This document shows positions 16,677 to 31,397 of a stretch of DNA of 64,000 nt, in pieces (the stretch's first letter is position 1; each line of letters opens with the position of its first letter). The stretch covers positions 1 to 64,000 of the forward strand of contig PWYW01000056.1 of NCBI GenBank assembly GCA_003567685.1. The letters run 5' to 3'. The DNA comes from Gammaproteobacteria bacterium. GTDB lineage: Bacteria; Pseudomonadota; Gammaproteobacteria; Xanthomonadales; Wenzhouxiangellaceae. Position numbers and translations under genes: made by a program. The notes beneath the pieces were generated by a model. That model made no database searches, was not told where the DNA came from, and saw nothing but the letters and a program-made list of their open reading frames with translations.

Positions 16677-16750
16677 TGAACGCAGCAACACAGAGGATTC
16701 ATTTGATCCAATCTCCCCCTTCGATTCTTTGCGTCTTTGCGTTTCAGGCT
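16677..16750. repeat. degenerate inverted-repeat element, family A (CGCAAAGACGCAAAG)
   Basis: ttgaacgcagcaacacagaggatt versus the reverse complement of gattctttgcgtctttgcgtttca. Confidence 0.55.
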
Positions 16751-20092: not shown

Positions 20093-20200
20093 AAAAATCT
20101 TTTGGACGCCAAGCAACGAAGCAACAAAGCAGCGAGGAATTGAAAATCACGCTTGCTCTTCGCGCCTTGGCTGCTTCGCTTCTTTGCGACTTAAAGGTTT
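20093..20200. repeat. inverted-repeat element, family A variant, no ORF
   Basis: atcttttggacgccaagcaacgaagcaacaaagcagcgagg versus the reverse complement of cttcgcgccttggctgcttcgcttctttgcgacttaaaggtt. Confidence 0.55.
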
Positions 20201-27050: not shown

Positions 27051-27159
27051 ATGAAAGGTAAAAGGTGAGAGGTAAAATCGCCGGGTGCCGCCTGTCGCTT
27101 CCGGGCGCAGACTGCTAACCTTTTACCTATCACCATTCACCTTTCACCTTTCAAATTTC
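27051..27159. repeat. inverted GGTRAAA-heptad repeat, family B copy 1
   Basis: gatgaaaggtaaaaggtgagaggtaaaa ... ccttttacctatcaccattcacctttcacctttcaaatttcacc. Confidence 0.65.
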
Positions 27160-27162
27160 ACC

Positions 27163-27435
27163 ATGCCCATCGATATCCGCAAAGAACACAACAAGAGCCT
27201 CGAAGAGGCGCAACAAATTGCCGACAACCTGGCCCAGGATCTGGCCGACAAGTTCAGCATCGACTATGGCTGGGAGGGCGATACGCTGGTGTTCCGGCGC
27301 ATGGGTGTGAGTGGCGAGATCGACGTGGACGAGCAGGTCGTTCACGTCAAGGCCCGGCTCGGTTTTTTCCTCTCCTACCTTGAGCCGGCGGTCGAGAAGG
27401 AAATTCATCGTTATCTGGACGAGCATTTTGTTTGA
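27163..27435 (+). CDS. polyhydroxyalkanoic acid system family protein (PHA granule-region type)
   Basis: MPIDIRKEHNKSLEEAQQIADNLAQDLADKFSIDYGWEGDTLVFRR...GFFLSYLEPAVEKEIHRYLDEHF. Confidence 0.85.
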   Translation: MPIDIRKEHNKSLEEAQQIADNLAQDLADKFSIDYGWEGDTLVFRRMGVSGEIDVDEQVVHVKARLGFFLSYLEPAVEKEIHRYLDEHFV

Positions 27436-27470
27436 GGCGGTGAAAAGGAAAAGGTAAAAGGTAAATGGTC
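27436..27470. repeat. single-arm GGTRAAA-heptad repeat, family B copy 2
   Basis: ggcggtgaaaaggaaaaggtaaaaggtaaatggtc. Confidence 0.55.
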
Positions 27471-29640: not shown

Positions 29641-30114
29641 TAACCGCAAAGACGCAAAGGGCGCCAAGAAAAGGCTTTCAAGAATGGCGGATGATTCACG
29701 ATTAAGCTCGGAAAGAACGGCCGCCGATCTGGTTGACAGTGCCGTCAAAGTGCACCGGGCGCTCGGTCCGGGACTGCTCGAATCTGCTTACCAGGGCTGC
29801 CTGGCTCACGAAATGACCGAGCGAGGCTACTCGGTTCAAACCGAGATAATCCTTCCGGTCGACTATGAAGGCATCCAGATTGACCGGGGATACCGAATTG
29901 ATATGTTGGTCAACGATCACCTGATCGTCGAAAACAAATCGGTTTCTGCTCTGACAGATGTGCATAAAGCACAGGTTATTACGTACCTCAAGCTCTCAGG
30001 CCTTCAACTTGGATTTTTGATCAACTGGAACGTTACTTTAATCAAACACGGAATCCAGCGAGTCGCGAACGCTCTTTAATACTTTCCTTTGCGCCCTTCG
30101 CGTCTTTGCGGTTA
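29641..30114. mobile_element. family A inverted-repeat element enclosing a GxxExxY gene
   Basis: Left arm TAACCGCAAAGACGCAAAGGGCGCCAAGAAAAGG (29641-29674); right arm, reverse complemented, TAACCGCAAAGACGCGAAGGGCGCAAAGGAAAGT (30081-30114). Confidence 0.65.
29684..30079 (+). CDS. GxxExxY family protein (PDDEXK_3-type)
   Basis: VHRALGPGLLESAYQGCLAHEM; GYRIDMLVNDHLIVENKSV; HKAQVITYLKLSGLQLGFLINWNV. Confidence 0.93.
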   Translation: MADDSRLSSERTAADLVDSAVKVHRALGPGLLESAYQGCLAHEMTERGYSVQTEIILPVDYEGIQIDRGYRIDMLVNDHLIVENKSVSALTDVHKAQVITYLKLSGLQLGFLINWNVTLIKHGIQRVANAL

Positions 30115-31330: not shown

Positions 31331-31397
31331 TAACCGCGAAGGCGCAAAGAACGCAAAGAAAGGTTTTTCCTTGGCGCTCTTCGCGTCTTCGCGGTTA
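31331..31397. repeat. family A inverted-repeat element without ORF
   Basis: TAACCGCGAAGGCGCAAAGAACGCAAAGAAAGG-ttttt-CCTTGGCGCTCTTCGCGTCTTCGCGGTTA. Confidence 0.75.

Follow-up and report, generated by a model that had tools for sequence, protein, structure and literature searches.

Two described systems come closest to the cassette reported here. In REPIN-RAYT systems, short repeats are paired in inverted orientation across a variable spacer and occur as many ORF-less intergenic copies, the enzyme is present in few copies per genome and its gene is not carried by mobile plasmids, there is no fixed target duplication, and the repeats may outlive the enzyme (PMC8049555). The GxxExxY cassette is alike on each of these points, and the repeats that flank its gene are indeed found as many ORF-less two-arm copies. 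The enzymes, however, differ: that of REPIN-RAYT is an HUH/Y1 tyrosine transposase (PF01797), whereas the GxxExxY protein is a predicted PD-(D/E)XK nuclease; the ORF described here is not of the HUH/Y1 type, its own genome is without a Y1_Tnp match, and a Y1 transposase is often lacking from genomes rich in GxxExxY arms. Moreover, the GxxExxY arms, unlike REPIN repeats, are heptad arrays with a spacing of 8-10 bp and of a type that varies between cassettes of the same genome.

The second system is the 23S IVS of Coxiella burnetii (PMC4990558). About 430 bp in length, this selfish element carries an S23p ORF and heptamer repeats, and its ends form a stem of 28 bp. The shared layout is that of one small ORF between inverted, stem-forming ends, with heptamer repeats adjoining the ORF (PMC4990558). 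The IVS differs in that it encodes a four-helix-bundle protein, lies inside rRNA and has tandem 7-bp repeats, whereas GxxExxY cassettes encode a nuclease and lie between protein genes, here between mvaB and an SDR gene.

Repeats similar to the arms have been described in Geobacter metallireducens, where three tandem TCTCCGTS repeats make up the 'class 2 predicted global regulator binding sites' (PMC2700814); TCTCCGTS is the reverse complement of CACGGAG, one of the heptads of the GxxExxY arms, and the sites form opposite-strand pairs at variable distance. They are presented as IHF/HU-type regulator sites of one genome, and the available text of that account contains neither GxxExxY nor mobility nor other arm types (PMC2700814). 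As far as that text goes, the repeats alone were already noticed in Geobacter, in 2009, without the gene.

Homing endonucleases, Cas4 and lambda exonuclease have in common with GxxExxY a single-domain nuclease with the E/D/ExK and QxxxY motifs; unlike homing endonucleases and Cas4, the GxxExxY cassette is without an intron, intein or CRISPR context. To our knowledge, the homing endonuclease, Cas4 and lambda exonuclease families are not characterised by cognate repeat arms flanking their genes. A search of the open-access literature (subscription papers lay outside it) for GxxExxY, PF13366, PDDEXK_3 and the arm strings returned no account of armed cassettes.

Judged by these analogies, REPIN-RAYT is the nearest known system in behaviour, and the Coxiella 23S IVS the nearest in layout. 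Because the defining enzyme feature of both fails here, we rate the pairing of a nuclease with heptad arms as a kind of its own; if the kind were defined by behaviour, the GxxExxY cassette would be a REPIN-RAYT variant. Our preferred reading, to which we assign a probability of roughly 55%, is that the locus is a REPIN/RAYT-like repeat system driven by an unrelated PD-(D/E)XK nuclease, which would act on the arms. It is apparently an undescribed, small and widespread DNA element that spreads. The GxxExxY family is itself very widespread, and its packaging between cognate arms gives a first concrete lead to its function and links it to many dispersed intergenic repeats that were catalogued as regulator sites or left unexplained.

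The cassette and its gene

The cassette, of about 475 bp, is part of the 64,000-nucleotide stretch of DNA that was analysed (the window), and its parts are given in Table 1. The heptad unit is C-R-C-N-R-A-K, three to an arm, with linkers of 1-3 bp. The original prediction of a GxxExxY ORF bracketed by inverted arms is borne out by the arms themselves and by profile matches to TIGR04256 (134.7 bits; cut-off 35) and PF13366 (130 bits; cut-off 22). Its description of the arms as tandem arrays of cGCAAAG-type units holds for the heptad units but not for a strict 7-bp tandem, the true period being 8-10 bp; the ORF-less arms that it placed at three further positions are all present, the last two in degenerate form. 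The copy with the cassette's own arm type folds as DNA into an almost perfect hairpin (-26.5 kcal/mol, z -6.4), and subtype CGAAGCAACAAAGCAGCGA is also that of the arms of loci L063 and L064.

Table 1. Coordinates of the cassette and of related two-arm elements in the window
Feature	Position	Strand	Description	Basis
Left arm	29641..29674	+	TAAC-type end, then heptads CGCAAAG, CGCAAAG, CGCCAAG	sequence, heptad scan
GxxExxY gene	29684..30079	+	131 aa, predicted PD-(D/E)XK nuclease superfamily, RecB/Cas4-like QxxxY motif	profiles, model, Foldseek
Right arm	30081..30114	-	left arm inverted, 30/34 identical	
ORF-less two-arm copy (REPIN-like hairpin)	31331..31397	.	arm type as in the cassette	
ORF-less two-arm copy	20093..20200, ends approximate	.	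related subtype (CGAAGCAACAAAGCAGCGA)	
Degenerate two-arm remnant	16677..16750 (coordinates of the original prediction)	.		

In the alignment of the family, the G..E..Y motif is invariant, as are E33, D73, K85, Q97 and Y101, and E83 is conserved above 90%. Such a set, E33/D73/E83/K85/Q97/Y101, is expected of a PD-(D/E)XK nuclease of the RecB/Cas4 type. The predicted structure (pLDDT 95) has Cas4 SSO0001 as its best Foldseek match (E 2.8e-3, probability 0.99, TM about 0.5); lambda-type exonucleases are also among the best solved-fold matches, and no close sequence relative was found among solved structures. The predicted fold, together with the catalytic acids and the lysine, places the GxxExxY protein in the PD-(D/E)XK superfamily. 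With dN/dS values of 0.02-0.15 in comparisons of close pairs, the ORF is under strong purifying selection, which means that a working protein is being maintained. At L042, L043, L071, L227 and L233, some GxxExxY matches lie inside long open frames (450-620 aa) that may be fusions or may have arisen by chance, and at L120 (717-1181) a 154-aa ORF, possibly other cargo, lies between arms of its own next to the GxxExxY gene.

Where both neighbours agree in orientation, that of the GxxExxY gene is the same in 43 loci and opposite in 2 (p 6e-11), a bias consistent with expression by read-through from host operons; it may have arisen because the ORF probably depends on such read-through. This extreme co-orientation could also mark an RNA-level selfish element like the 23S-rRNA IVS, in which the arms pair as a stem once transcribed, the insert is cut out of the host mRNA or isolated from it, and that RNA is what the protein acts on. 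The RNA fold of the whole cassette is strong (z -6.0), the four-helix-bundle (S23) family is found here with the same layout (see below), and the Coxiella IVS of the S23 family is excised by RNase III (PMC4990558). We nonetheless judge an RNA-level element distinctly unlikely, as the predicted fold resembles the DNA nucleases Cas4 and lambda exonuclease, RNA stems alone leave the genomic spread unaccounted for, and read-through dependence explains the co-orientation equally well. A known structured RNA was rejected: the cassette has no Rfam match.

Arm pairing and arm type across GxxExxY genes

The presence of arms was scored by aligning the 250 bp upstream of a gene to the reverse complement of the 250 bp downstream, with a score of at least 16, a threshold chosen after a first look at the data, taken as a pass. 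Three samples were used. Every full-length GxxExxY gene in 101 related genomes made up the first, in which 43 of 47 genes passed; the shuffled flanks had a mean score of 9.6 and a maximum of 17. The second consisted of 80 loci among the matches listed in a scan of the genomes of 84,980 species, for which a closer subset of the family was the query, the broad 19-sequence alignment being too divergent; this sample favours one protein subgroup. Among the matches listed, 66 of the 77 usable loci passed, 55 of the 77 still did so at a stricter score of at least 20, and arms were found in at least 16 of the 17 phyla sampled, archaea included. The third sample, from 398 genomes of the same phylum, gave 46 passes for 55 genes. 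Pooled, 155/179 GxxExxY genes (87%; for the second sample, among the matches listed) have arms no more than 250 bp away. For control ORFs from the same loci the figure was 8/210, or 7/209 once one ORF that its sequence identified as a second GxxExxY gene had been dropped. Because of this difference (155/179 versus 7/209), the pairing of arms and gene is not due to chance; the packaging of GxxExxY genes between arms is confirmed as real and general, and the enrichment implied by the original prediction is present.

The arms vary strongly in type among cassettes (CACAGAG, CGCAGAT, CGCAAAG, CACCGAA, CACGAAT and others). Within one element, heptad positions 2, 5 and 7 agree at 95-98%, and position 4 at 81%. 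A tree of 142 proteins requires only 5 changes at position 7, compared with a mean of 30.6 and a minimum of 27 in 200 shuffles; the changes at positions 2, 5 and 4 number 24, 25 and 36, against shuffled means of 46.9, 41.8 and 47.4, respectively. In genomes with multiple cassettes, agreement at positions 2, 5 and 7 was 0.90 with the cassette of the nearest protein elsewhere but 0.48 when cassettes sharing a genome were compared (p 9e-7). These comparisons show that the arm sequence tracks the GxxExxY protein lineage. The 80-locus set is biased to one subgroup, with position 7 almost always G among the matches listed, and coupling between bacterial classes was assessed on a set of cassettes from other classes. 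There, the coupling of positions 2 and 5 to the protein fades, and because position 7 alone stays well coupled (0.81 versus 0.47 expected; other-class cassettes versus order relatives), the finer arm code turns over quickly. The arm types represent a ready-made specificity code to decipher.

That arm type follows the GxxExxY lineage argues against a passenger role, in which the arms are spread by another enzyme (RAYT or IS200 TnpA) and GxxExxY was merely captured, a view suggested by the resemblance of the two-arm hairpin copies to REPINs. No Y1_Tnp match was found in the genome of the window or in the arm-rich relatives G002, G003, G024, G025 and G051; across the relatives, arms and Y1_Tnp are if anything anticorrelated, and the flanks of Y1_Tnp genes hold other palindromes, none of them heptads. 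We regard the passenger account as largely refuted and give it hardly any credence.

ORF-less copies, gain and loss

Allowing at most one mismatch, the 5' end of the arm has 25 matches in the 2.74-Mb genome of the window and 1 in the reversed control; most of the 25 belong to about 11 further ORF-less two-arm copies, and the genome has a single GxxExxY gene. The genome-wide search proposed with the original prediction turned up tens of two-arm copies without an ORF per genome; most lie between genes, and their spacers vary. They may be non-autonomous derivatives of the cassette, as the original prediction has it, but the interiors of most of them, checked by eye, hold no trace of a GxxExxY gene, and some genomes keep arms without the gene. 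Near-identical dispersed copies with the ORF were not found within any one genome, only a tandem pair. At L058 (G068, C111), three GxxExxY genes lie in tandem at a spacing of 426 bp, two of them identical in DNA, with an in-frame stop.

Arms were counted in the 101 relatives with CRCRRAG-type and CRCRGAT-type patterns, for which reversed-pattern controls were almost always zero. At least three arms were present in 30 of the 36 genomes with GxxExxY, compared with 10 of the 65 without (p 1.6e-11). GAT arms occurred in 13 of the 15 genomes with a GAT-type protein and in 11 of the 86 others (p 2.5e-8), and the non-GAT arm type likewise matches its protein type (p 2.3e-12); the genome of the window has 11 CRCRRAG-type matches and zero of the GAT type. 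The 10 of 65 genomes that keep at least three arms without a GxxExxY match run counter to our preferred reading, as do six GxxExxY genomes with fewer than three arms by the two patterns used, the fading coupling of positions 2 and 5 between classes, and the failure to find near-identical dispersed copies with the ORF. Most of the genomes are metagenome assemblies, some of them incomplete, so that a few may only seem to lack the gene.

On the preferred reading, a REPIN/RAYT-like system driven by the nuclease, the GxxExxY protein would recognise the heptads of its own arms, presented as arm hairpins or as paired heptad arrays; a nick or break would follow, and repair or replication would then copy the element. 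In this manner the protein would help two-arm elements to be copied, whether or not they contain the ORF. New copies would land in intergenic sites and in the loops of older elements, a spread that comparison of genomes shows. If the nuclease does drive the repeats, the elements would rank among the smallest genetic units known to spread themselves, as a counterpart of REPIN-RAYT that uses a different enzyme.

G002, G007, G018, G020 and G023 lack the cassette at the mvaB-SDR junction, in agreement with the original prediction that it was inserted there. Other relatives have CGCAAAG-armed cassettes with intact ORFs at this junction; G016 and G025 have it in frameshifted or truncated form, and a single arm is all that is left of it in G005 and G014. 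In G006 and G022 its place is taken by a CACCGAA cassette with a protein of a different subfamily, beside a leftover CGCAAAG arm. Empty and occupied alleles also both exist at the rmlB-rmlA junction (names read from sequence), where G003 and G010 carry a CACAGAT cassette and the other readable relatives have none; one of these is G011, with 88% identity in the flanking gene. At one intergenic site (L273/L274/L276), three nested two-arm elements were found in G003, two in G010 and G011, and none in G002 and G006. The middle CGCAAAG pair is missing on both sides in G010 and G011 while the innermost element is kept; simple block insertion does not explain such paired gain or loss of arms around an intact inner element. 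In G003, CACGGAA or CACCGAA elements are repeatedly nested in the loops of CGCAAAG elements.

The swapping or nesting of cassette types at one junction, as at mvaB-SDR, would also suit a homing-type selfish gene, whose nuclease cuts arms or ORF-less elements in another allele or genome copy, repair then copying the ORF-bearing cassette by gene conversion, with the repeats spread by another route. The intact catalytic set and the match of arms to protein type are as homing would have them. Homing alone, however, would not create ORF-less copies at tens of unrelated sites per genome, and no junction showed a clear pair of ORF-less and ORF-bearing alleles that share a type; we consider homing unlikely. 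Host regulation, according to which the arms are regulator binding sites (in DNA or RNA) and GxxExxY is a domesticated, autoregulated protein, fits less well than a selfish element with the patchy presence, the empty sites, the nesting, and the observed replacement and decay. Although the protein is under purifying selection and the Geobacter authors, in the available text, took similar paired repeats for global regulator sites (PMC2700814), the arm types differ among the cassettes of one genome, and host regulation seems to us very unlikely.

The inverted repeat extends about 5-7 bp outside the first heptad. In 90 elements there was no fixed target duplication, no offset or length having a consistent excess over mispaired flanks, and a DDE insertion sequence or MITE was rejected for want of a target-site duplication of fixed length. 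Phage or plasmid cargo was rejected from the near-absence of the family from phage records (0 matches in 50,697 with two queries, and 1 confirmed viral contig) and from mobilizable plasmids (8 of 72,556 plasmid records match, none mobilizable). Cassettes recur at the carA-carB junction (L029, L034, L035, L037, L043 and L052) and at sufC-adjacent junctions (L028, L042 and L047; gene names read from sequence), in different genera and sometimes with different arm types and proteins, which makes these junctions insertion hot spots.

A second heptad-armed family

Four-helix-bundle (TIGR02436) genes of the same genomes, taken as a negative control, came out positive, with arms of another type: inverted arms were found for 22 of 26 (L353-L382, 30 loci), and these are strict 7-bp tandem units such as GGGGACC or AGGTTTC. 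This points to a broader class of small-gene cassettes with heptad arms. It is possible, at slightly less than even odds in our estimate, that the two unrelated protein families belong to an unrecognised class of selfish cassettes found across bacteria and archaea. In such a class, with at least these two protein types, GxxExxY (spacing 8-10 bp) and S23p (strict 7 bp), a small protein would co-evolve with inverted tandem-heptad arms, and ORF-less two-arm copies would be dispersed by neither a DDE nor an HUH route and would tend to nest in the loops of older elements. In the window, 7-bp tandem units (AAAGGTA...TTTCACC) at 27051-27163 make up an ORF-less element with two arms immediately upstream of a PHA_gran_rgn gene, and a further 7-bp array lies just downstream of it at 27443-27469, leaving the host gene between arms that are probably of the four-helix-bundle type.
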